Source: Dakarella massiliensis
GTDB lineage: Bacteria; Pseudomonadota; Gammaproteobacteria; Burkholderiales; Burkholderiaceae_F
NCBI RefSeq assembly: GCF_001182045.1
Contig: NZ_CVTY01000005.1
Span: forward strand, 124,001-188,000
Length of the DNA stretch: 64,000 bases
Reading direction: 5' to 3'
Shown: positions 10,742 to 55,735 of the stretch, in pieces
How positions within the stretch are numbered: position 1 is the stretch's first letter
Layout: every line of letters starts with the position of its first letter
The notes under the pieces: model-generated
Databases searched by the model: none
Told to the model about the DNA's origin: nothing
Seen by the model: the letters and a program-made list of their open reading frames with translations, nothing else
Made by a program: the position numbers and the translations under genes

Positions 10742-12088
10742 ATGAAAGATTTTTGGCAAAACTGCTGCGATCTGCTCCGACTGGATGCACGAATCAGCAG
10801 CGACAAGTTCGATACCTGGATTGCCCCGCTGCAGATGGAGTCCTGGGACCCCAAGTCCGGGGAACTGGTTCTCTCAGCAGCGAGCGCCCAGAAGCGGGAC
10901 GTGACGAGGTCAACCTACTCCGACATCATCACCTTCCACGCTACCCGGGCCAATAACGACAGTCCGATCACAGTCAAATGGATTGTGAGGGAGCCGAAAG
11001 TCGAAGCCCCTGCTCCCAGCAGCAGCGTCGTACAGCAGGATTCAACCTCCTTCAATCAGCTGGCGGAATCCTGCGGTCTTCTCAGCTCGCTCTCATTTGA
11101 GAATTTCGTTCAGGGTATGAGCAACAAGGTGGCGCTTGGCGCGGCTACCTATGTCGCGAATAACCCCGGTACCAAAGCCTTCAACCCGCTTTATATTTAC
11201 GGCGGCGTCGGCCTCGGCAAAACGCATCTGATGCATGCCATCGGTCTCGCCGTTCTGAAGCGCAATCCCAAGGCGAAAATCCTCTGCCTCAGCGCCACAA
11301 CCTATATTGCTGAATTCCTTAAGGGAATCGCGCGAAAGGACCAGAGCTTCTATCAGCGATTCAAGTCTCTGGACCTGCTCCTGCTCGATGACGTGCAGAT
11401 GCTCGGGTCGAAGGAAGGCACACAGTCGGCCTTCTTCTCCACCTTCGAAGCACTGGTGCCGCACGGCAAACAAATCGTGCTCACAAGCGATACCTACGCG
11501 AAGCAGCTGAAGGATGTGGATGAACGGCTGAAGAGCCGTTTCGCAGGCGGCATGTCAGTGCCGATCGATCCTCCTGAGCTCGAAACCCGAGAAGCCATTC
11601 TGATGAAGAAGGCAGAGCAGAGCGGTACCAATCTGCCTGAAGATGTCGCTTTCTTCATTGCGAATCACCTGAAGAGCAACGTGCGTGAGCTGGAAGGCGC
11701 GCTGCAGCAGGTGATCGCTCATGCCCGCTTCAACGGCATCGATATCTCGATTGATCAGGCCCGGACCGCGCTTCACGATCTGATTCACAGCCAGAACGAA
11801 ATCACGGTTCAGGATATCCAGAAGAAGGTCGCGGACTATTACAAGATCCGCGTCGCGGACATGCACTCAAAGCGCCGTCCGAGAGTGATTGCCTACCCCC
11901 GCCAGATCGCCATGTACCTGTCGAAGAAGCTCACACAGAAGAGCTATCCGGAAATCGGCGAACTGTTCGGCGGCAAAGATCACACGACAGTGCTCCATGC
12001 CTGCAAGAAGATAGAAAGCGACCGCAGAATCAATGAAGAGCTGAATCACGAGCTGCATGTGCTCGAGCAGAATCTTCAGAATTTCTGA
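10742..12088 (+). CDS. dnaA: Chromosomal replication initiator DnaA
   Basis: Binds DnaA boxes and opens oriC in its ATP form. The 448 residues include domain I (FWQNCCDLLRLDARISSDKFDTWIAPLQ), a short variable linker, an AAA+ domain with Walker A GGVGLGKTH (about 154-162) and Walker B LLLLDDVQML, and C-terminal domain IV with the DnaA signature GGKDHTTVLHACKKIE that reads the box. The ATG at 10742 has no recognisable Shine-Dalgarno sequence, but the N-terminus aligns with other DnaA proteins, so the start is kept. dnaN follows after 42 bp. Confidence 0.98.
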   Translation: MKDFWQNCCDLLRLDARISSDKFDTWIAPLQMESWDPKSGELVLSAASAQKRDVTRSTYSDIITFHATRANNDSPITVKWIVREPKVEAPAPSSSVVQQDSTSFNQLAESCGLLSSLSFENFVQGMSNKVALGAATYVANNPGTKAFNPLYIYGGVGLGKTHLMHAIGLAVLKRNPKAKILCLSATTYIAEFLKGIARKDQSFYQRFKSLDLLLLDDVQMLGSKEGTQSAFFSTFEALVPHGKQIVLTSDTYAKQLKDVDERLKSRFAGGMSVPIDPPELETREAILMKKAEQSGTNLPEDVAFFIANHLKSNVRELEGALQQVIAHARFNGIDISIDQARTALHDLIHSQNEITVQDIQKKVADYYKIRVADMHSKRRPRVIAYPRQIAMYLSKKLTQKSYPEIGELFGGKDHTTVLHACKKIESDRRINEELNHELHVLEQNLQNF

Positions 12089-12130
12089 TTATAAAAATCA
12101 CACAACACACTCAGAATTGGGAAATCAAGA

Positions 12131-13294
12131 ATGCAAGTACTGAAAGGATCTAGAGAATCTCTGCTGACGCCTCTTACGACAGTGAGCGGCATTATTGAAA
12201 CTCATCAGACCGTTCCGATTCTCAGCAACGTTCTGATCCAGTCTGACGGCAGCAAGGTCAGCTTCACTGGCAGCAATCTTGAGATTCAGATCAAGACCCA
12301 TGCGGAGCTTGAACAGGAAGGAGATCCGGTCGCATTCACCGTTTCTTCCCGGAAGATTCAGGATCTGATCAAGAGCCTTCCGCCCACGGAAGTGACCATT
12401 TCGCTTGGCGCGGCCCGCAAGGCGATCAGTGCCGAAGGCGGCAATCAGATCTCTCAGAAGATGGAGGTGAGCACTGAGAACAGCCGCTTCTCGCTTCAGA
12501 CCATTCCTGCGGATAAGTATCCGAGCTTCCCGGAAGCTGACTTCACCAGCAGCGCCACGATTCCCGCGAAGCAGCTGAAGTACATCCTCTCCATGGTTCA
12601 CTACGCCATGGCGAACCAGGATATCCGCTTCTACCTGAACGCTGTCCGTCTCGTTATCAAGGATGGAAAGGTGCGCGTAGTGGCAACCGACGGCCGCCGT
12701 CTCGCCTTCTGCGAGATCACTCCGGACAAGAACAGCATTGTGTCGGAAGACGTGAGCGTCACTATTCCCCGCAAGGCCGTTCTCGAACTGAAGCGTCTTC
12801 TCCCTGAAGAGGATGACGACAAGGAAATTCCGGTCAAGATTGATTTCGCAGCCAATCAGGCCCGCTTCACCTTCAATGGTGTCGAAGTGACGACGAAGCT
12901 GCTCGAAGGCACGTATCCGGATTACGAGCGCGTTATTCCGACAAATAACGACAAGGTGTTCCTGATCAGCCGCGAGGCTCTGCTGCAGGCTCTGCAGCGT
13001 ACGGCTGTTCTCGCCTCCGACAAGTTCAAGGGCGTGCGCTGGCTGCTCAGCCCCGGCCTGCTTTCCATTCAGAGTTCCAACTCCGATCAGGAAGAAGGCA
13101 ACGACAATATTGCTGTTGATTATCAGGGAGATCCGATCGATATCGGCTTCAATATCGACTTCCTTTCCGACGTTCTCAGCAATCTGAAGAACGACAAGGT
13201 AAAGATCGCTCTGTCCGGTCCTCAGGGTTCCGCTCTGATCACGATGCCCGAGAGTGACGACTTCAAGTATGTCTTGATGCCGATGCGTCTCTGA
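12131..13294 (+). CDS. dnaN: DNA polymerase III sliding clamp (beta subunit)
   Basis: The ring-shaped processivity clamp for DNA polymerase III, with three repeated clamp folds in 387 residues. Visible landmarks are VSGIIETHQTVPILSNVLIQ near the N-terminus, VRVVATDGRRLAFCE in the middle and a C-terminus ending in YVLMPMRL, the universal hydrophobic/MPMR-like tail that forms the binding groove for clamp-binding motifs. It lies between dnaA and gyrB in the standard dnaA-dnaN-gyrB order; recF, often found between dnaN and gyrB, is absent here. Confidence 0.98.
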   Translation: MQVLKGSRESLLTPLTTVSGIIETHQTVPILSNVLIQSDGSKVSFTGSNLEIQIKTHAELEQEGDPVAFTVSSRKIQDLIKSLPPTEVTISLGAARKAISAEGGNQISQKMEVSTENSRFSLQTIPADKYPSFPEADFTSSATIPAKQLKYILSMVHYAMANQDIRFYLNAVRLVIKDGKVRVVATDGRRLAFCEITPDKNSIVSEDVSVTIPRKAVLELKRLLPEEDDDKEIPVKIDFAANQARFTFNGVEVTTKLLEGTYPDYERVIPTNNDKVFLISREALLQALQRTAVLASDKFKGVRWLLSPGLLSIQSSNSDQEEGNDNIAVDYQGDPIDIGFNIDFLSDVLSNLKNDKVKIALSGPQGSALITMPESDDFKYVLMPMRL

Positions 13295-13300
13295 TCGCAT

Positions 13301-15893
<2,593 letters not shown>

Positions 15894-15918
15894 TCGATAA
15901 GGAAACCAACATCTGACA

Positions 15919-15959
15919 AACGGGGAAGCAAACTTCAGTTTTTGCCTCCCCGTTTTTTT
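15919..15959 (+). terminator. Rho-independent terminator after gyrB
   Basis: AACGGGGAAGCAAAC and GTTTTTGCCTCCCCGTT form a GC-rich stem around a TTCA loop, followed by a run of seven Ts. It closes the dnaA-dnaN-gyrB group. Confidence 0.85.
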
Positions 15960-16016
15960 ACAGCAGCAGGAACCGTCCGGAGTGATCCGGACAGAAGACA
16001 GAACAAGGAAGATGCC

Positions 16017-16943
16017 ATGACCACATCTCTAAACGCTCAAAATGAAAAACTGGTGATTGCTGTTTCTTCCCGGGCGCTGTTCGATCTCGAAGAAGAACAT
16101 CGTCTGTTTGAAAGGGAAGGATTCGCGGCCTACCGGACCTACCAGGTGGAGCATCAGGATGTGCCTCTGAAGCCTGGTGTCGCCTTTCCATTCATCAGCC
16201 GCCTTCTCAAGCTGAATGAGATCTTTAAGGATCAGGCCCCGGTCCGTGTGGTGGTGCTGTCCCGGAACAGCCCGGAAACGGGGCAGCGGTTTTTCAATTC
16301 CTGCCGCCATTACAGCCTGCCGATTGAGGCCGGAGCCTTTACCTCAGGGCAGTCCACCTTTCCTTTCATGAAAGCCTTCAATGCCAGCCTGTTCCTGTCC
16401 GCCAATATCGACAGCGTGCGTCAGGCGACTTCTATCGGGCTTCCGGCTGGTCTGGTGCTTCCTACCTCGTTCCAGGACGAGGAAGGGGATACAGGGCTCC
16501 GTATCGCCTTTGACTTCGATGGCGTGGTTGCCGGTGATGAAGCGGAAAAGAAATTTCAGTCAGAAGGCATGAAAGCGTTTCAGCAGGAAGAAATTGATAA
16601 GAAGATGCAGCCTCTCCAGGCGGGACCTCTCCAGTCTCTTTTCTCCAAACTCTCACAGCTCCAGAAACTCGACGCGGAAAGAGGGAAAGATGATCCCTAC
16701 TATGAACCGGCAATCCGCATTGCTGTCGTGACGTCTCGCGGAGCTCCAAGCGAGCAGCGCCTGATCACGACGCTGAAAAGTTTTGGAATGTATGCGGCCG
16801 AGCTTTTTCTGCTCGATGGGATGCCGAAGAAACCTATTCTGAATGTTTTAAAACCGCACATCTTCTTCGATGATCAGCTGAAACACCTGCAGGAAAACAC
16901 GATTCCCAGCGTTCTTATTCCTTTTGGGATAAATTCAAAGTAA
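16017..16943 (+). CDS. Cytosolic 5'-nucleotidase (NT5C1-like, HAD fold)
   Basis: Resembles the bacterial relatives of animal cytosolic 5'-nucleotidase I, which dephosphorylate nucleoside monophosphates; the exact substrate cannot be read from sequence. Of the 308 residues, LVIAVSSRALFDLEEEH and VVVLSRNSPETGQRFFNS are typical of the family, and IAFDFDGVVAGDEAE carries the HAD nucleophile/acid pair DxD, with IFFDDQ near the C-terminus as the metal-binding acid motif. The ATG at 16017 has an AAGGAAG site; longer starts would run into the gyrB terminator. It stands alone between gyrB and the putative origin. Confidence 0.82.
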   Translation: MTTSLNAQNEKLVIAVSSRALFDLEEEHRLFEREGFAAYRTYQVEHQDVPLKPGVAFPFISRLLKLNEIFKDQAPVRVVVLSRNSPETGQRFFNSCRHYSLPIEAGAFTSGQSTFPFMKAFNASLFLSANIDSVRQATSIGLPAGLVLPTSFQDEEGDTGLRIAFDFDGVVAGDEAEKKFQSEGMKAFQQEEIDKKMQPLQAGPLQSLFSKLSQLQKLDAERGKDDPYYEPAIRIAVVTSRGAPSEQRLITTLKSFGMYAAELFLLDGMPKKPILNVLKPHIFFDDQLKHLQENTIPSVLIPFGINSK

Positions 16944-16957
16944 CCAGATAAAAATCC

Positions 16958-16993
16958 GAACGGCTATCGATTTCTGATAACCGTTCTTTTTTA
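16958..16993 (+). terminator. Rho-independent terminator after the 5'-nucleotidase gene
   Basis: GAACGG-C-TATC pairs with GATA-A-CCGTTC around a short loop, followed by TTTTTTATCTTTTT. It isolates the nucleotidase gene from the AT-rich region that follows. Confidence 0.75.
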
Positions 16994-17453
16994 TCTTTTT
17001 CAACAGAAAGAAAATTGTAGTTATATTGTTTATTATATTTTAAAAGAATAATAACAACAATAACAGTAGAAAAACTCGTTGGATATGCTTATTTTTTATT
17101 TTTATTCAAAGAGTTATGCTGTTAAAAACTTTGTGGATAGTTTTGATGGATGCCGGGGACATCCCTGTGGACAGAAAAGAATAAAACCGGCTCTTCCGAA
17201 AGATAACTGAAGTTTTCAACAGAAAAGCAGGATTTGTTCATTCAGAAACTGTGGATAACTTGATGAATTTCCGGCTTATTTTTCCACAGAGGGTGATAAG
17301 AACATAAAACACAGAAAAATCAGCTGATTGGACAATGTTTCCGTGTTGATAGTCTGTGGAAAAGCATGGAATATAATGGGTTGCTAATATTATCAGACCT
17401 TCTCTCTGATTCAAAATAAAATATTTTTCATATCAGCTTAGGACTCTGCGAAC
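16994..17453. other. Probable replication origin (oriC) region
   Basis: No credible gene in 460 bp. About 17000-17120 is extremely AT-rich (runs such as TTTATTATATTTTAAAAGAA), suited to a DNA-unwinding element. It is followed by a DnaA-box cluster: TGTGGATAG at 17132-17140, TGTGGACAG at 17166-17174, a perfect TGTGGATAA at 17250-17258, TTTTCCACA at 17280-17288 and TGTGGAAAA at 17355-17363. TTTTCAACAGAAA also occurs twice (near 16996 and 17212). This is denser than in the rpmH-dnaA gap, so it is the better oriC candidate by sequence alone. It also contains the promoter of the downstream regulator. Confidence 0.65.
17250..17258 (-). promoter_or_regulatory. DnaA box (perfect) in putative oriC
   Basis: TGTGGATAA on the plus strand equals TTATCCACA on the minus strand. 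It is the central and strongest box of the 17.1-17.4 kb cluster. Confidence 0.75.
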
Positions 17454-18173
17454 ATGGATAGTAAGCCGGTTCCTTGGTTTGCCCCCAAAGTCTCCCCTGC
17501 TCTGAATACGATCGTCCGCAATCTTGGACACCGTGTTAATAAGAGCAAGGGTGACGTGCTGTATGAAACCGGCTCCATGTTTGAAAGGCTGATGTATGTT
17601 CAGTCCGGAACTGCCGCAAGGGCAGTTCTTATGCCGGGGTTTGAAGACACCCCGTTTTTCGTTCTGCTTGCCCTTCAGGGCAGTCTGATCGGCTGCGTTG
17701 AGACGCTGTACTCCAAAGATTCCGTGATGAGGCACCAGTGGGCGGTCAATAACTGTGAAGTGCTGACGATTCCGAAGGAAATTCTCCTGAAACTCGCGGA
17801 TCATGAGCCCTCCTGGCATAAAGAGCTCGCGGGATACAACGCGGCCACGACACTCGCTGACCGAATTGGTCTCATGGTGACCCGTGAGGGAGATCCGCAC
17901 CAGAGACTGGGTTCCTTTATTTATGCCTACTGCTCGAGAAGCAGCCTGCCGATCGATGAAGAACTCAGGGATGAGAAGAAAGACTGGCTGGCGCTCCCTT
18001 CATTTCCTCCGCGTAAACTGATCGGACAGGTGATCGGCTGCGAAACCTCTCTGATTGATAAAGTAATAGAAGACTGGCAGAACGAAGGAAGCCTGAAGAA
18101 GATTCACAGAAACGCTCTGATGCGAAGAACCAAGCTGTGCGAGTACTTTTACTGGCTGCAGCGCTTCATCTGA
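17454..18173 (+). CDS. Crp/Fnr-family transcriptional regulator
   Basis: A 239-residue protein with an N-terminal cyclic-nucleotide-binding-like beta domain (roughly 25-125, including KGDVLYETGSMFERLMYVQSG) and a C-terminal winged helix-turn-helix (about 190-225, SFPPRKLIGQVIGCETSLIDKVIEDWQNEGSLKK). The N-terminal domain lacks an evident cAMP phosphate-binding RxS motif and the cysteine set of Fnr, so the effector is unknown. It is likely monocistronic, starting right at the edge of the putative oriC. Confidence 0.8.
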   Translation: MDSKPVPWFAPKVSPALNTIVRNLGHRVNKSKGDVLYETGSMFERLMYVQSGTAARAVLMPGFEDTPFFVLLALQGSLIGCVETLYSKDSVMRHQWAVNNCEVLTIPKEILLKLADHEPSWHKELAGYNAATTLADRIGLMVTREGDPHQRLGSFIYAYCSRSSLPIDEELRDEKKDWLALPSFPPRKLIGQVIGCETSLIDKVIEDWQNEGSLKKIHRNALMRRTKLCEYFYWLQRFI

Positions 18174-18224
18174 ACCGGGAATGGTCTTCAGAGGGCAGTT
18201 TCTAACACTGAAACGGAGACTCAC

Positions 18225-18875
18225 ATGAAAATTGCTAAGTTCACTATTCCGCTGCTGGGCTGCGTTGCGGTTCTTGCCTCTAGCGGCTGCGCGCCGATTC
18301 TGGCGGGCGGTGCTATGGCGGGAGGTGTATCCGTGGCGGTTGACCGCCGCTCTACCGGAGCCCAGGTCAATGACGGCGTGATTGAGAACCGCGTTTCCTG
18401 GGAAATCTCTCAGAAGATCGTCCCGGAGGATCAGCATATTACGGTGACGAGCTACAACGGCAAGGTGCTGCTCACCGGCGAGGTGAAAACCGAACTGGAA
18501 AAGAAGACCGCTGGTGAAGTCGCGAGCAAGAGCCTGGATGTCAGCAGTGTTGTGAACCAGCTGGCGGTTCAGGAACCGGTATCTGTTGGACGCCGGATGA
18601 AGGATTCCGGCATCGCGACAAGTGTCAGAAGCCGTCTGCTCACGGCCCAGGGCGCACCCTACAGCCAGATGAAGATCATCTGCGACCGCGGCATTATCTA
18701 CCTGATGGGTCTTGTCACTCCGACCGAGGGTCAGATTGCCGGTGAAATCGCGGCGAAAACCGATGGCGTGAAGGAAGTCGTGAAGGTGTTTGAGTACCAG
18801 TCGGCCGCTGAGATCAAAGCCCGTATGGATTCCTTCCAGAAGGCTCCGAATACCGATTCAACGAGCACCAATTAA
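18225..18875 (+). CDS. BON-domain outer-membrane lipoprotein (DolP/YraP-like)
   Basis: A 216-residue lipoprotein: signal peptide MKIAKFTIPLLGCVAVLASSGC with lipobox LASSGC (lipidated C22), then two BON domains of about 60 residues each (about 50-115 and 120-190), each with the V-x-L-x-G-x-V pattern (GKVLLTGEV; GIIYLMGLV). The organisation is that of DolP (YraP), which is reported to maintain outer-membrane integrity. The residue after C22 is Ala, so Lol sorting to the outer membrane is expected. It ends only 6 bp from the convergent lipA stop. Confidence 0.88.
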   Translation: MKIAKFTIPLLGCVAVLASSGCAPILAGGAMAGGVSVAVDRRSTGAQVNDGVIENRVSWEISQKIVPEDQHITVTSYNGKVLLTGEVKTELEKKTAGEVASKSLDVSSVVNQLAVQEPVSVGRRMKDSGIATSVRSRLLTAQGAPYSQMKIICDRGIIYLMGLVTPTEGQIAGEIAAKTDGVKEVVKVFEYQSAAEIKARMDSFQKAPNTDSTSTN

Positions 18876-18881
18876 TCCGAA

Positions 18882-19775
18882 TCAGAGTCCGCCGGCCAGT
18901 TTTCTCAGTTCTGACGCTCGGTAGCTTGAGCGCACGAAGGGGCCGGCGGCGCACCCGATAAAGCCCATATTCAACGCTTCCCTGCGGTACCGTTCAAACT
19001 CTTCCGGTGTCACGAAACGGCGTACCGGAGCGTGTTCCGGACCGGGGGACAGGTACTGTCCCACAGAGAGAAGCGTGACCCCGGAGTTTCTCAGATCCTG
19101 GAAGGTCTGAAAAAGCTCATCCTCGGTTTCTCCCAGCCCCACCATAATGCCGCTCTTCAGCGGAATCCCAGGCATCGCTTCGTGATAGCGCTTCAGCAGT
19201 TCGAGTGATCCCTCGTAGCGTCCGCCTGGACGCACCGTTCTGAAGAGACCGGGAACGGTCTCAATATTGTGGTTGAAGACATCCGGTGCGGTCTCGGACA
19301 GCACCGTTACCGCATCCTCCATATTTTTCTTGAAATCCGGAACCAGAATTTCCACCCGGCAGTGAGGATTGACTTCCCGGATGCTGCGGATGCATGCGGC
19401 AAAATGCCTTGCTCCGCCATCCGGAACATCGTCCCGCGTCACGCTGGTCAGCACCGCGTAGCTGAGTCCCAGCTTCCGGATGGTATCGGCGAGGAGCGCG
19501 GGCTCAGCGGGATTCAGGGGCAGAGGCCGCCCGTGGCCGATATTGCAGTAGGTGCAGTTCCGCGTACAGACACTGCCCATCAGAAGAAAAGTGGCGGTTC
19601 CGGACGCGAAGCACTCGCTGATATTCGGGCATCGGGCTTCTTCACAGACCGTGGGAAGCGGAAGCCGTTCTTTCATTTTCCGGTAGTCGCTGGATCCTGA
19701 TTTCACCCGGATCCGGAGCCACGAAGGAAGATGCCGGTGCCCGGACTCTTCCGCTTTGCTTCCGTTCTTCTCCAT
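18882..19775 (-). CDS. lipA: Lipoyl synthase
   Basis: Radical-SAM enzyme that inserts two sulfurs into octanoyl groups on lipoyl-dependent proteins. It has both iron-sulfur cysteine sets: CEEARCPNISEC (auxiliary cluster) and CTRNCTYC (radical SAM), plus GGARHFA, HNIETVP and a C-terminal RSSYRA with the serine that ligates the auxiliary cluster. The ATG at 19775 was chosen over a TTG six bases upstream because of a GAGGA site at good spacing. It is last in the run YbeD-lipB-menA-lipA, the menA gene being the unusual member. Confidence 0.96.
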   Translation of the reverse strand: MEKNGSKAEESGHRHLPSWLRIRVKSGSSDYRKMKERLPLPTVCEEARCPNISECFASGTATFLLMGSVCTRNCTYCNIGHGRPLPLNPAEPALLADTIRKLGLSYAVLTSVTRDDVPDGGARHFAACIRSIREVNPHCRVEILVPDFKKNMEDAVTVLSETAPDVFNHNIETVPGLFRTVRPGGRYEGSLELLKRYHEAMPGIPLKSGIMVGLGETEDELFQTFQDLRNSGVTLLSVGQYLSPGPEHAPVRRFVTPEEFERYRREALNMGFIGCAAGPFVRSSYRASELRKLAGGL

Positions 19776-19806
19776 GATCAATCCTCGTAAAGCCGGTCTT
19801 CTGCCG

Positions 19807-20730
19807 CTACAGAACCCAGTGCCAGAGCGCGTCGAGCAGCGCGCCGATGGTTAGCAGAATCGCGAACTGCATTTCAAGTTTCACCGTGTTGAAAAGCGTC
19901 TGGTTGAGTTCCAGTCCCTTCAGCGTCCGGAAGTCCTCATACAGGCCTTTCACTTTGCGGATGGCGAAGAGGCTGATGAGGTAAAGGAAGTGCTCAGGGT
20001 ACACCGTCACGATGAGAAGCACGATGATAAAGGGAAGCAGCAGCAGATCGAGGTAAAGCCGGGGGAACCGCTGCTGTCCAAGGACGACCGCGAGAGTCCG
20101 TCTGCCGACAGATTCATCATGCACCGCGTCACGCCAGTTATTGACAACCAGAACGCTCGACGCAATGGAGCCGCAGGCACAGCTCGCTGCCACTGAAATA
20201 AAGGAAATCGTGCCGGTTTGCAGATAGTAAGTGCCGTTCACGGCAATCAGTCCGAAAAAGATGAAGACCGTCAGTTCACCCCAGGGGGTATACGCAATCG
20301 GTTTCGGACCGCCCATGTAAAGGTAAGCCGCAGCTACAGACAGCGCTCCCAGCACGAAGATCACCCAGCCGCCGATGACTACTAGCGCGAGGCTGATCGC
20401 TACCACCACGATAGCGGTGAGGAGAATGGCCCGGTCGACCTGCTGGATGGTGAGCCATCCTTCGCTTGTCGCCCGGGGAAGTCCCTTCCGGTTACCTTTC
20501 TCAGCCTTTCGCTTCGTGTAGCCGACATCATTCTCCATATTGGTCAGTGCCTGAATGGCGACTGCGACCGCAATGGTCAGAAGTCCGAGCAGCAGCCGGC
20601 CGTGGCCGGTTTCCGAGAGCGCCATTGAGATACCGATGAAAATCGGCGCCAGCGCGACTCCCCATGTCTTCGGGCGGATGGCCGCGAACCAGGCCTGAAT
20701 GGAACCGGAACGAATGGTCTTTTCAGTCAT
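19807..20730 (-). CDS. menA: 1,4-dihydroxy-2-naphthoate prenyltransferase (UbiA superfamily)
   Basis: Membrane prenyltransferase that attaches the isoprenoid tail in menaquinone synthesis. It has 307 residues with about eight hydrophobic segments, the Asp-rich motif region TNMENDVGYTKRKAEKGNRKG, MGGPKPIAYTPWGELTVFIFFG, and the second motif NNWRDAVHDESVGRRTLAVVLGQ, a pattern characteristic of MenA rather than UbiA. It overlaps the lipB 3' end by 8 bp and lies 31 bp before lipA, so it is inside the lipoate operon. It suggests that the organism uses menaquinone and can respire anaerobically. Confidence 0.88.
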   Translation of the reverse strand: MTEKTIRSGSIQAWFAAIRPKTWGVALAPIFIGISMALSETGHGRLLLGLLTIAVAVAIQALTNMENDVGYTKRKAEKGNRKGLPRATSEGWLTIQQVDRAILLTAIVVVAISLALVVIGGWVIFVLGALSVAAAYLYMGGPKPIAYTPWGELTVFIFFGLIAVNGTYYLQTGTISFISVAASCACGSIASSVLVVNNWRDAVHDESVGRRTLAVVLGQQRFPRLYLDLLLLPFIIVLLIVTVYPEHFLYLISLFAIRKVKGLYEDFRTLKGLELNQTLFNTVKLEMQFAILLTIGALLDALWHWVL

Positions 20731-50352: not shown

Positions 50353-51256
50353 ATGCCGGCAATAACGACCAATGGCGTCACTCTCTACTATGAAGCGTAC
50401 GGGAAACTCTCGGACGGAGGGACGGTTTTTCTGATTCCCGGGCTCGGGATGCAGCACTGGATGTGGCCCGATACGCTGATTGAAACGCTGGTGAAAGGCG
50501 GCGCGGGAGTCGTGGTGATGGATAACCGCGACTGCGGGCGGTCTTCCCGCTGTTCGGGCCGTGTCTCCATGGGACGGGTGTTCGGTTCCATCGGCAGAAC
50601 GCTCACGCGTCAGCCGGTCTGTCTACGGGCTGGAAGAGATGGCTTCTGACGTGGTGGGACTTGCCTCAGGGCTTGGCATCCGAACCTTCCATGCGGCTGG
50701 TATATCCATGGGCGGCATGATTGCCCAGGTGCTTGCGGCCCGGTATCCGGAATCGGTGCTGAGTCTCACATCGATGTCTTCCGCGACTGGCAATCCCCGG
50801 ACAGGTCTCGGCAAGTTTTCCGCGATCTGGGCCACGATCAGGCCGCAGTCTCGGCTGACCAGTGAGTCGGAAGGCGTGAAACGGCTGGATCGCTTCATCC
50901 GGGCTATGGGATCCGTCAGTTACGAGAGAACCGATGCCGAGAAGCGGCGTCTTGTGCGGCTCATGGCCCGGAACCCCGGAGATCCGGATGGATTCAGGCG
51001 GCAGCTTCTTGCGCTGCTTCAGAGCGGTGACATACGCACTCAGGTCTCGGGAATCCGGGTGCCGACACTCGTCCTCCACGGTCTCTCCGATAAGCTCCTT
51101 CCGCCCCGCGCGGGCAAAGAAACGGCGGACCTCATTTCCGGGGCCCGCCTTGAGATGATTCCGCGGCTCGGGCATGATCTGCCCCCCGCGCTTGGCGCCA
51201 GGTACGGGCGCCTGATGCTCGAGAATTTTTCCCGGGCACCGTCCAGGGAATGCTGA
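50353..51256 (+). pseudogene. Alpha/beta hydrolase, broken by a frameshift
   Basis: Two reading frames together make one alpha/beta-hydrolase. The first (from ATG 50353) encodes VTLYYEAYGKLSDGGTVFLIPGLGMQHWMW through DNRDCGRSS, the oxyanion part. The second continues with YGLEEMASDVVGLASGLGI, then AGISMGGMIAQVLAARYPE, whose GISMGG is the nucleophile elbow (Ser), and VPTLVLHGLSDKLLP with the acid and GHDL with the His. The shift, from frame 1 to frame 2, lies near 50612-50630 (around CAGCCGGTCTGTCTACGG). The triad is present, so the break is recent, or a sequencing or assembly error. The stop abuts the convergent def stop (TGATCA). Confidence 0.8.
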
Positions 51257-51793
51257 TCAGGATCGCGCGGCGTCCTCTTCAGCCTTACGCTTCGCGGCGA
51301 GCTTCAGCTTATGCAGCTTCTTCTGGTCGCGCTCTTTCTTCAGACGGCTCAGATGATCAATAAAGACGATGCCGTCGAGATGATCGATTTCATGCTGAAC
51401 ACAGACCGCCAGAAGCCCTTCACAGTGACGCTCGAAGAAGTTGCCCTTCAGATCCTGGGCGCGCACGGTCACCTCTGACGGGCGGACCACTTTGTCCCAG
51501 ATGCCGGGCAGCGACAGGCACCCTTCCTCGTACTCAACTTCTTCTTCAGACTTTGACGTGATAACCGGATTGACAAGCGTCAGCAGCTGGTCTTTCTCTT
51601 CGGAAACGTCAATCGTGATCAGGCGGATGGGATGTCCCACCTGCGGTGCGGCAAGCCCAACCCCCGGGGCGGCGTACATCGTTTCCGCCATGTCGGCCGC
51701 AAGCTGTGCGAGCTTGTCGTCAAACACCGTGACGGGATCGCACTTCACGGCCAGAACAGGATTCGGATAAATAACAATGGGGAGTTTGGCCAA
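51257..51793 (-). CDS. def: Peptide deformylase
   Basis: Removes the formyl group from nascent proteins. The TTG start at 51793 was chosen because AGGAGG lies just before it and the protein then begins AKLPIVIYPNPVLAVKCDP, the family N-terminus, giving 178 residues; the upstream in-frame stretch has no family similarity. It contains all three metal/catalytic motifs: GVGLAAPQVG, EGCLSLPG (Cys ligand) and QHEIDHLDG (HExxH). C-terminus is lysine-rich, a little longer than in E. coli. It is transcribed away from the damaged dprA. Confidence 0.96.
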   Translation of the reverse strand: MAKLPIVIYPNPVLAVKCDPVTVFDDKLAQLAADMAETMYAAPGVGLAAPQVGHPIRLITIDVSEEKDQLLTLVNPVITSKSEEEVEYEEGCLSLPGIWDKVVRPSEVTVRAQDLKGNFFERHCEGLLAVCVQHEIDHLDGIVFIDHLSRLKKERDQKKLHKLKLAAKRKAEEDAARS

Positions 51794-52097
51794 GACAGGC
51801 CTCCTGATAAATAATGCTGGATGGTGTATGCCACATGGCATCGCACCTTTAAGATAAGTGGCAATTGTAACGTAACGGTATTTCATCATAAGCCGCCGCG
51901 CGGCTGAGAGAAATCCCGTGGGATACATTGCCTGGGAGCGTCATGACAGAGGAAGAGATTCACGCCTGGATCACCTTTTCCACGGTGCCCGAAATGGGGC
52001 TTGAGGATGCCGTTCGGCTGCTGGGGGACTTCGGGTCACCCGGGGCGGTTCTGGATTCCAGCCTGAGTGAGCTTCGGCATGCGGTGCCCGATGAGCT

Positions 52098-52219
52098 CGC
52101 CCGCCGTATCGCGTCGGGGCCGGAGGACGAACAGGCTGAGGTAATCGAGAAGACGGAGGGCTGGCTTCGCCGGGCATCCGGATCCTTCGTGACCTCCATC
52201 GCGGGTGAGGGTTTTCCCC
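52098..52219 (+). repeat. Direct repeat copy 1 inside dprA (122 bp)
   Basis: Matches 52315-52436 at an offset of 217 bp with three differences (52160, 52205, 52211), each a G here where copy 2 has A. In the dprA frame each changes Asp to Gly (EDW to EGW; ADED to AGEG). Copy 2 carries the residues normal for the family, so this copy looks derived. Confidence 0.9.
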
Positions 52220-52314
52220 CCGGACAACGCCGGTTTCGGTGCTCCCGTAGATTCCGGAAGCCGGAATTCCGACTATCTCTTTCACCCGGGCTCCGGTGTC
52301 CGCCCCCAGTTTTC
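52220..52314 (-). other. Inverted fragment of an adenylate-forming (ANL) enzyme gene, 95 bp
   Basis: On the minus strand this reads GKLGADTGARVKEIVGIPAS then GIYGSTETGVV, which fits the core of AMP-dependent acyl-CoA/aryl ligases around the YGSTETG adenylate motif. No ANL gene lies elsewhere in the window, so the source is another chromosomal site or another genome. Its ends coincide with the two repeat copies of dprA. Confidence 0.7.
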
Positions 52315-52436
52315 CGCCCGCCGTATCGCGTCGGGGCCGGAGGACGAACAGGCTGAGGTAATCGAGAAGACGGAGGACTGGCTTCGCCGGGCATCCGGAT
52401 CCTTCGTGACCTCCATCGCGGATGAGGATTTTCCCC
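52315..52436 (+). repeat. Direct repeat copy 2 inside dprA (122 bp)
   Basis: Second copy, 217 bp after copy 1. It reads on into the rest of dprA and has the family-type residues (IADEDFPRG), so it appears to be the ancestral version. A 217-bp offset is not a multiple of three, so the duplication breaks the frame. Confidence 0.9.
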
Positions 52437-53143
52437 GCGGGCTTTTTGAAACCGGATGCTCGCCTCTCGTGCTTTATGGACTCGGGGACCGGAAGCTGCT
52501 CAGAAGACGGCTGCTTGCCATTCTGGGGACGCGTCACCCGTCCGCCGAAGGTGAGAGGGACGCGTACGAGTTCGGAGCAGCGCTGGAGAAGGTGGGGCTC
52601 ACGCTTCTCTCCTCGATGATGGAGGGGGTTGAGGCGGCAAGTCTCCGGGGAGCGCTCTCGGATCCGGCAGGCGCCGCCGTGGTGCTCTGCGCCTCGCCTC
52701 TGAACCGGGTGTACCCGGCGTCCCTTAAGCCCATCATGATGAAGACGGCGAAGCAGGGACTCCTTCTCAGTGCGACACCGATCGGCGAATTCCTGACCCC
52801 GGAGCGGCTCGAACTCCGGTACCGGTATCTCGCCGGAATGGCGGACGCTGTGCTGCTGATGGAAGCCTCGGCTCACTCCAAGGCGATTCCGGTCGCGAAG
52901 ACCGCGGGATCCTACGGGAGGGACACTCTCGCGGTTCCCGGTAACATTCACCTGCCGCTTTCCAAGGGCCCCAACCGGCTGATCTGCAGCGGGGCGAGGC
53001 TTGTTGAAAGCGTACAGGACATCGCTGGCGAGATCCGTGGGCTGTCGGAGCGGATCCCGAGGCTCTCGGATGATCTCCGCTCCTAGCTGTGTCTGTAACT
53101 GTTATGCTGAAAAAAGCAAGGACCTTTTATTACTGAGCGCTTT

Positions 53144-55735
53144 ATGGGCAAAAAACTAATCATCGCTGAAAAACCCTCCGTCGCGACCGACCTGCAGAAA
53201 GTGATCGGCGGCATGGAGCGGATCAAGACCGAAGCTGGAGATTATTTCGAGGGTGATCAGTACGTTGTGGCGAGTGCCGTAGGACATCTGCTGGAGCTTG
53301 CTGTTCCTGAGAAATACGATGTGAAGCGCGGCAAGTGGACGTTTGTCCATCTGCCCCTCATTCCGCCGGAGTTCGAGCTGAAGCCGATCACGAAGACGGC
53401 TTCCCGCCTGAAGCTCCTCGCGAAGCTGATCAAGCGTAAGGACATAACGGGTCTTATCAATGCATGCGATGCGGGACGCGAGGGTGAGCTGATCTTCCGC
53501 TACATCGTGCAGGCAACTCACGCGAAGCAGCCGATCCAGAGACTGTGGCTTCAGTCGATGACTCCGGGTTCGATCCGGGAAGCGTTCGCGCATCTGAGAA
53601 GCGATGAGGAAATGCAGCCGCTCGCCCAGGCGGCCAAGAGCCGATCTGAGGCTGACTGGCTGGTCGGCATCAACGGAACCCGCGCGCTCACCGCGTTCAA
53701 TAATAAGAACGGCGGTTTCTTCCTTACGACGGTCGGCCGCGTGCAGACGCCGACGCTCGCCGTCGTGGTGAACCGCGAGGCTGAGATCCGGGCTTTCAAG
53801 CCGAAGAATTACTGGCAGGTTGAGGCGACATTCGGCTCCCGGTCCGGCAGCTACACCGGTGTCTGGTTTGATCCTCAGGCAAAGAAGGATGAGACCGGCG
53901 AGAAGAAGTCTGACCGCATCTGGGATAAGGCTGAGGCTGAGGCCGTCAAGGCCCGCTGCGAAGGAAAAGAGGGCACGGTGACCGAAGTGTCGAAGCGCGT
54001 GAAGCACGCCGCGCCGCCGCTTTTTGATCTCACCACGCTGCAGCGTGAAGCGAATAACCGCTTCGGTTTTACCGCGAAGACCACGCTTGCCATCGCGCAG
54101 TCCCTTTACGAAAAGCATAAGGTCCTCTCTTACCCGAGAACCGACGCGAAATGCCTTCCGACCGATTACGTCGATGACGCCAAAAAGACGCTTGACCTGC
54201 TCAGCCAGCTGCCGCAGTTCAGCGGCATCGCGCGTAAGCCGCTCGAGAACAGCTGGGTGAAGCCGAACCCCCGTATTTTCAATACCGAGAAGATCAGCGA
54301 CCACTTCGCGCTGGTGCCGCTGCCGGATCACCTTCCGAGCAAGCTTTCGGACGTCGAGGCGAAGGTCTATGACCTGATCGCGAAGCGCTTTATGGCGGTG
54401 TTCTATCCGTCCGCCGAAGTGGATGAAACGACCCGCGTGACGACGGTGGGTGAGGATCAGTTCCGGACCCGCGGCAAGGTGCTGGTGAAGGCCGGCTGGC
54501 GCGAGGTTTACGGCGGCCAGGGCGACACGGCCAACACGCTGCCGCCCGTCACTCCGAATGAAACGGTGAAGACCGGCGAAATCGATATCCTCGACAAGGT
54601 GACGCAGCCCCCTGCGCGTTACACGGAAGCCACGCTGCTCTCCGCCATGGAAGGCGCGGGCAAGATGGTTGAGGATGATGCGCTTCGCTCTGCCATGCAG
54701 GATAAAGGTATCGGCACGCCGGCTACCCGCGCGGCGATCATTGAAGGCCTGATTCTGCAGAAGTACCTGATCCGCGAAGGACGCGAACTGCGCCCGACCG
54801 CGAAGGGTATTGAGCTGCTCGCGCTTCTGAAGGGACTCAAGATTGAGGAACTGTCGGAACCGGAACTGACGGGTGAATGGGAAAGCCGTCTTGCTCAGAT
54901 CGAGAAGGGCTCGCTCTCCCGTGAGGAATTCATGGCCGGGATCCGCGACATGACGGAAAAGATCGTGGCTGCGGCGAAGCAGTACGAAGGCGAATCCGTG
55001 CCGCTCAGCAATCCGATTCATCTGAAGCACCGCTGCCCGAAGTGCGGCGGTGAGGTGGTGGAAAACTTCCGCCGCTATGCCTGCACGAATCCGTCCTGCG
55101 ACTTCAGTATCACCAAGCATCCGGGCGGCCGCACCTTTGAGCCCGAGGAGGTGGAGGAGCTGCTTGAGAAGAAGCAGATCGGCCCCCTGCAGGGTTTCGT
55201 GAGCAAAATGGGCCGGCCGTTCTCTGCCGTGCTGAAGCTCACGGCGGCCCCTGACTACAAGCTGGAATTCGTGTTTGACAATCCGACCCAGAGCGACGAA
55301 AACACCGCTCCGGTGGATTTCTCGTCGCTTACCCCGATCGGCAAGTGCCCGGTCTGCGGCGGTCGTGTGTTTGAGCTCCCGATGGCCTACGCCTGTGAGA
55401 ACACCCAGAATACGGAAAAGAAGTGCACGTTCCGTACCGGGAAGGTGATCCTTCAGCAGACGGTGGCGCCCGAGCAGATCAAGAAGCTGCTCGAGACCGG
55501 GAAGACGGATCTCCTGACGGGCTTTGTCTCGAATAAGACGCACCGGAAATTCTCTGCTTACCTCGCGCTGCAGAAGGGCGGCAAGGTCGGCTTTGAGTTC
55601 GAGGAGCGAGAGCCGAAGGCTGCCGGCGCGAAGAGCCGCATGCGGACCGTGAGAAAGACAGCTTCGGCAGCGGAAACAAAAGCCGCTCCCGTGAAGCGCC
55701 GTACCCGTACGGTAAAGAAAACCTCTGAATCCTGA
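53144..55735 (+). CDS. topB: DNA topoisomerase III
   Basis: Type IA topoisomerase that decatenates DNA and resolves recombination intermediates. The 863 residues include the TOPRIM start (KLIIAEKPSVATDLQ), CDAGREGELIFR, the active-site YPRTDAKCLP with catalytic tyrosine near Y330, and GTPATRA. The C-terminal third adds two zinc-finger-like Cys pairs (CPKCGG...CTNPSCDF; CPVCGG) and a basic Ala/Lys tail rich in TVRKT-like repeats, longer than in E. coli TopB. It lies 57 bp after dprA; the smg gene (DUF494) often found between them in betaproteobacteria is missing. Confidence 0.96.
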   Translation: MGKKLIIAEKPSVATDLQKVIGGMERIKTEAGDYFEGDQYVVASAVGHLLELAVPEKYDVKRGKWTFVHLPLIPPEFELKPITKTASRLKLLAKLIKRKDITGLINACDAGREGELIFRYIVQATHAKQPIQRLWLQSMTPGSIREAFAHLRSDEEMQPLAQAAKSRSEADWLVGINGTRALTAFNNKNGGFFLTTVGRVQTPTLAVVVNREAEIRAFKPKNYWQVEATFGSRSGSYTGVWFDPQAKKDETGEKKSDRIWDKAEAEAVKARCEGKEGTVTEVSKRVKHAAPPLFDLTTLQREANNRFGFTAKTTLAIAQSLYEKHKVLSYPRTDAKCLPTDYVDDAKKTLDLLSQLPQFSGIARKPLENSWVKPNPRIFNTEKISDHFALVPLPDHLPSKLSDVEAKVYDLIAKRFMAVFYPSAEVDETTRVTTVGEDQFRTRGKVLVKAGWREVYGGQGDTANTLPPVTPNETVKTGEIDILDKVTQPPARYTEATLLSAMEGAGKMVEDDALRSAMQDKGIGTPATRAAIIEGLILQKYLIREGRELRPTAKGIELLALLKGLKIEELSEPELTGEWESRLAQIEKGSLSREEFMAGIRDMTEKIVAAAKQYEGESVPLSNPIHLKHRCPKCGGEVVENFRRYACTNPSCDFSITKHPGGRTFEPEEVEELLEKKQIGPLQGFVSKMGRPFSAVLKLTAAPDYKLEFVFDNPTQSDENTAPVDFSSLTPIGKCPVCGGRVFELPMAYACENTQNTEKKCTFRTGKVILQQTVAPEQIKKLLETGKTDLLTGFVSNKTHRKFSAYLALQKGGKVGFEFEEREPKAAGAKSRMRTVRKTASAAETKAAPVKRRTRTVKKTSES

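Follow-up and report, generated by a model that had tools for sequence, protein, structure and literature searches.

The dprA gene of a gut bacterium related to Mesosutterella multiformis (Sutterellaceae) carries a 126-nt direct duplication around a short filler that is identical to another locus of the same genome, and this arrangement probably arose when one faulty round of replication or fork repair switched template twice (MMBIR/FoSTeS-like). The gene lies in the window, a stretch of 64,000 nucleotides (G000:C5:124001-188000) from an assembly of 2.48 Mb in seven contigs that is 98.81% complete. The nearest relative compared was M. multiformis 4NBBH2 (G002), with which the window is collinear; 5.9% of 63,894 aligned bases differ. 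On either side of dprA are putative genes for peptide deformylase (51257-51928, minus strand) and topoisomerase I (53144-55735, plus strand).

A repeat search identified the two copies of the dprA segment (Table 1), which are spaced by 217 nt and are 97% identical, a match that is not due to chance; base-by-base comparison located four mismatches between them. The first-pass annotation, made from the sequence alone, described copies of 122 nt (52098-52219 and 52315-52436, offset 217, three mismatches), and that description is exact, the repeat extending 4 nt more with one further mismatch. The 95 bp between these shorter copies (52220-52314) had been reported not to be dprA sequence, and they are indeed without counterpart in the M. 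multiformis gene, but the filler is not foreign as had been claimed, since 52223-52321 recurs without a mismatch at another locus of the bacterium's own genome. The filler overlaps the second copy by 7 nt, which leaves 91 nt of unique filler. When aligned to M. multiformis, the window matches up to 52223 and resumes from 52315, and the two pieces overlap by 126 nt in the relative, i.e. no recipient base was lost and the net gain was 217 nt. Two or more separate events, a tandem duplication then an unrelated insertion or the reverse, could give a similar outcome, yet the edge of the duplication is precisely where the filler lies, with an overlap of 7 nt, and all other indels in the 64 kb are of 5 bp or less, so that such a history is very improbable.

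Table 1. Features of the split dprA gene, in window coordinates
Feature	Position	Strand	Remarks
dprA 5' fragment, 137 aa from ATG	51943..52356	+	out of frame through the filler, ends in copy 2
dprA segment copy 1, 126 nt	52098..52223	+	four derived substitutions, at 52160, 52205, 52211 and 52220
293-aa open frame, GTG start	52205..53086	+	N-terminus encoded by the filler, followed by copy 2 and the remainder of dprA to its normal end
Exit junction	52220..52223	+	1 nt (52223, G) common to dprA and donor; G-to-C change at 52220
Filler, 99 nt	52223..52321	+	exact match to G000:C7:176814-176912, within a 557-aa AMP-binding/ApeI-like gene, in antisense
Microhomology CGCCCGC, 7 nt	52315..52321	+	common to donor and dprA, re-entry junction
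dprA segment copy 2, 126 nt	52315..52440	+	in frame with the rest of dprA; all its M. multiformis differences common to copy 1

The offset of 217 nt is not a multiple of three and the 5' part of dprA is therefore out of frame. This 5' fragment has no match in Pfam or NCBIfam. The 293-aa frame, meanwhile, matches PF02481 at 2.4e-36 over profile positions 8-211 of 212 and aligns without gaps to M. multiformis DprA from ARRIASG on; its TIGR00732 score of 122.3 bits is below the cut-off of 191.15, and no ribosome-binding site is evident by eye before its GTG. The full-length gene is split and, as predicted from these matches, the core DprA domain is still encoded. The earlier statement that dprA is disrupted thus holds for the full-length frame but not for the 293-aa frame, which retains nearly the whole DprA Pfam profile.

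The first-pass annotation had pointed to relatives as the place to look for an intact gene, and in M. multiformis, the closest, dprA is an uninterrupted 308-aa frame. The best match in each of the four other genus genomes (G001-G004) is free of internal stops, and the open frames concerned are 324, 325, 381 and 324 aa long. A wider search covered 61 genomes including the bacterium's own, 49 of which matched and 12 of which did not; one best match (G025) has an internal stop. Between the two species, with copy 2 used for the duplicated part, the 306 dprA codons compared differ by 40 synonymous and 7 nonsynonymous changes (dN/dS 0.056, with 0.041 for the gene downstream), and the gene was therefore under purifying selection until recently. 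A ComEC domain was found in none of the five genus genomes, against control matches to the profile in 10 of 14. The dprA scar represents the recent loss of a full-length frame in a gene that had been under purifying selection, in a genus without a detectable ComEC domain. Purifying selection between the two species, together with the ComEC result, raises the question of whether DprA is kept for a role other than DNA uptake.

Some other features of DprA in the genus were recorded. In the five aligned members (window 52441-53086; L035, L037-L039) the protein departs from solved DprA at one motif, which is SGLAKGIDTAAH in 3uqz and SSMMEGVEAASL in M. multiformis, and genus DprA scores below the TIGR00732 cut-off in four of four tested. 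A second, weakly DprA-like protein of 420 aa is encoded at L058:322-1584 (G000:C7:145121-146383), with a PF02481 match of 1.6e-07 over profile positions 3-103 of 212, and weak matches of this kind are present in all five genus genomes.

It had been proposed that the source of the filler be sought within the genome, and the search, made with 52050-52500 as the query, returned a single other place on another contig, plus strand, with 100% identity over 99 nt (Table 1). This donor stretch is antisense inside the 557-aa gene, which has both AMP-binding and ApeI-like domains. Its counterpart in M. multiformis (C1:1595108-1595206, 99 nt) is only 89% identical to the filler as against 100% for the donor, which indicates that the template was the donor sequence as it stands in this lineage. 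Because about 11 differences would be expected at 11% divergence and none is seen between filler and donor, the event would date to roughly the last quarter of the separation from M. multiformis, or later. In M. multiformis the donor counterpart lies 874 kb from dprA, further along the same contig and in the same orientation. The window contains a dnaA domain at 11090-11560 and a change of sign in GC skew between about 12 and 20 kb, which would place dprA roughly 35-41 kb from the likely replication origin, and dprA and the donor probably lie on one replication arm. The region from 11090 to 20000, which holds both signals, is itself a likely origin region.

The identity of the donor also bears on two further readings, natural transformation in which the incoming DNA was integrated illegitimately, and insertion of a mobile element with target duplication. 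The gene struck is dprA, which in other bacteria is a transformation gene, and this would suit the former. However, DNA uptake is weakened by the failure to find a ComEC domain in the five genomes, the filler corresponds to part of a chromosomal gene and has one other occurrence, and a duplication of 126 nt exceeds by far the usual target duplications, which are far shorter; explanations of this kind are scarcely credible. Transposon insertion in particular was rejected, as the filler is part of the chromosomal AMP-binding/ApeI-like gene and the repeat is 126 nt long.

For the junctions, 400,000 random breakpoint pairs from the window and a donor region of 14 kb served as the comparison. The 7 nt shared at the re-entry junction are matched or exceeded at a frequency of 0.000595 in random pairs, and the 1 nt shared at the exit junction at a frequency of 0.446; there is clear microhomology at one junction and not at the other. 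To see whether the changes by the exit junction had come from a third template, the bacterium's own genome was searched with the pattern of 52200-52219, which, with up to three mismatches, matches at the two dprA copies only. Secondary structure and inverted repeats near the breakpoints, assessed in the M. multiformis allele, are not unusual (ranks 0.34-0.74 among centres).

The difference between the two junctions would also be accounted for by capture of a short single-stranded donor fragment at a replication gap, one end being primed by the 7-nt microhomology and the other ligated without homology. Such a process would resemble short-patch double illegitimate recombination (SPDIR), reportedly described by Harms et al. 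2016 with intragenomic sources, which the title names, and with short-patch substitution. The intragenomic sources of that title suit the donor found here, but fragment capture must invoke a 126-nt overlap of two nascent pieces for the duplication, and SPDIR reportedly substitutes short patches; we consider this route unlikely. SPDIR proper, with a short recipient segment replaced by a donor patch, was rejected, given that no recipient base was lost and 217 nt were gained. NHEJ capture was likewise rejected: Ku (PF02735) was found in neither of two genomes, with control matches in only 1 of 14 (B. subtilis), and end joining is weakened accordingly.

The two dprA copies share 12 differences from M. 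multiformis, and at each of the four sites where they disagree with one another the change is in copy 1, i.e. derived there. Three are A-to-G and one is G-to-C; the last 19 nt before the exit junction hold three of the four. The probability of all four falling in copy 1 is 0.018 and that of at least three of the four falling in its last 19 nt is 0.012, both tests having been chosen after the data were seen. Clustering by the exit junction may be a sign of low-fidelity replication but is suggestive only, and later drift in a broken segment is a fair alternative. The notion that these substitutions might complete the pairing of a small hairpin, judged by eye, was given no weight.

The copy-1 substitutions are also relevant to the reality of the structure. 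Microhomology also promotes amplification chimeras, and the arrangement is known from the assembly of a single genome, as would be the case if a chimeric molecule from the library or the assembly had been built into the contig. Such an artefact, however, requires two chimeric joins in one dominating molecule; assembly searches gave no second, continuous dprA copy; and copy 1 has four substitutions that are absent from copy 2. We therefore regard an artefact as quite improbable. Apart from the dprA event, there are 20 indels in the 63,894 aligned bases, none above 5 bp. Twelve are outside M. multiformis frames of at least 90 aa and eight within the bounds of such frames, three of these at most 20 nt from a frame end and five inside; the distribution weighs against an artefact only weakly, and as five lie inside frames the assembly is not proven to be error-free. 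A second broken gene, at 50353-51256 and 1.3 kb upstream of dprA, has been interrupted by the loss of 5 bp near 50620. It is presumably hydrolase-like, and its counterparts are a 302-aa frame in M. multiformis and 303-aa frames in two other species that look homologous by eye.

The double template switch is preferred because it explains the repeat, the filler, the 7-nt overlap and the absence of any lost base in one step. In a plus-strand version the nascent 3' end would leave dprA at about 52219-52223, copy 99 nt on a second template, the AMP-binding/ApeI-like gene, and re-anneal via CGCCCGC to dprA 126 nt behind the exit, where synthesis would go on. One step would then yield the 126-nt direct duplication together with the 91 unique filler nucleotides, and would leave the 5' part of the gene in a different reading frame from the rest. 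The minus-strand mirror, in which the end would leave through the 7-nt microhomology and return at the poor junction with errors just after, fits the structure equally well. The first-pass annotation envisaged a polymerase that left dprA, copied elsewhere and re-entered upstream, and this proposal is supported by the 99-nt donor, the return behind the exit and the 7-nt microhomology, with 1 nt at the other junction. Weighing against the double switch are the 1-nt exit junction, the unremarkable structure at the breakpoints and the origin of the evidence in one genome's assembled sequence.

A more specific scenario is offered tentatively. In this bacterium, where neither Ku nor ComEC is detectable, one error-prone fork-restart event carried out by a low-fidelity polymerase could possibly have made both switches and the substitution cluster at the exit, leaving a natural bacterial MMBIR scar on a small scale, with a mutation shower. 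Y-family polymerase matches number two in each of two genomes. The direct repeat would be expected to make the allele unstable by slippage or recombination; the repeat might then leave dprA metastable, and populations may be mixed for split and continuous dprA.

Contig C7 was surveyed for similar scars against M. multiformis over 180 kb (nine stretches of 20 kb; 171,860 aligned bases after matches below 200 nt were dropped, some secondary matches being counted twice). Two indels of 10-11 bp were found inside aligned blocks, and several larger gaps are also present between blocks. A duplication with spacer at L064:15593-15727 was rejected as a second scar, being growth of a coding repeat without a distant donor. 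The surrounding region (L064:15081-15749, on G000:C7) encodes two small proteins of short repeats such as YYDKNGFYQGK, the second of which exceeds its M. multiformis counterpart by 102 bp, or about two units. As far as sampled, the genome is not full of such scars, since the window has no other indel above 5 bp and the only similar case on C7, its larger gaps apart, is a coding tandem repeat. With a donor, both junctions and a pre-event relative in hand, the dprA scar makes a genome-scale search for such scars possible, including a test of one-sided error clustering.

The short intragenomic donor and illegitimate junctions of the dprA scar are reportedly shared with SPDIR, but here no recipient base was replaced, 126 nt were duplicated and the genus is without a detectable ComEC domain. 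The MMBIR/FoSTeS scheme of Hastings et al. 2009 (PMC2621351) has microhomology junctions then stretches from elsewhere, and whether a deletion or a duplication results depends on whether synthesis comes back ahead of the collapse or behind it. The dprA scar is similar: it has microhomology at one junction, with 1 nt at the other, a sequence at the junction that was templated from another locus, and a return to the original template behind the exit, giving a 126-nt duplication. That account concerns human copy number variation, whereas the dprA pieces are only 99 and 126 nt and their mechanism is putative. Template switching is described both in connection with genome disorders of humans (PMC2621351) and from selection experiments in E. 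coli (PMC3161906). The first-pass annotation called such events rarely seen in complete bacterial genes, a view that needs qualifying, as microhomology-associated template switching has been reported in E. coli before (PMC3161906). Short microhomology junctions and direct-orientation double switches are reported there for lac amplification in starving cells, a bacterial parallel to dprA; unlike the 217-bp change in one chromosomal gene without known selection, however, the assay selects for amplification and the changes are mostly kb-sized. Among the matches listed in a literature search, no title concerned direct repeats within a bacterial gene that enclose a filler templated at a distance; a study of blaKPC variants (PMC12593533) came nearest. 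Insertions above 10 bp are ascribed there to MMBIR, and they resemble the dprA scar as small in-gene bacterial insertions attributed to template switching; the differences are that the proposal, in the portion of the paper concerned, is made at the level of discussion for tandem repeats, and a distant donor is not described in that portion. The dprA scar appears to be a clear natural example of a type of error known from work on laboratory bacteria and on humans.
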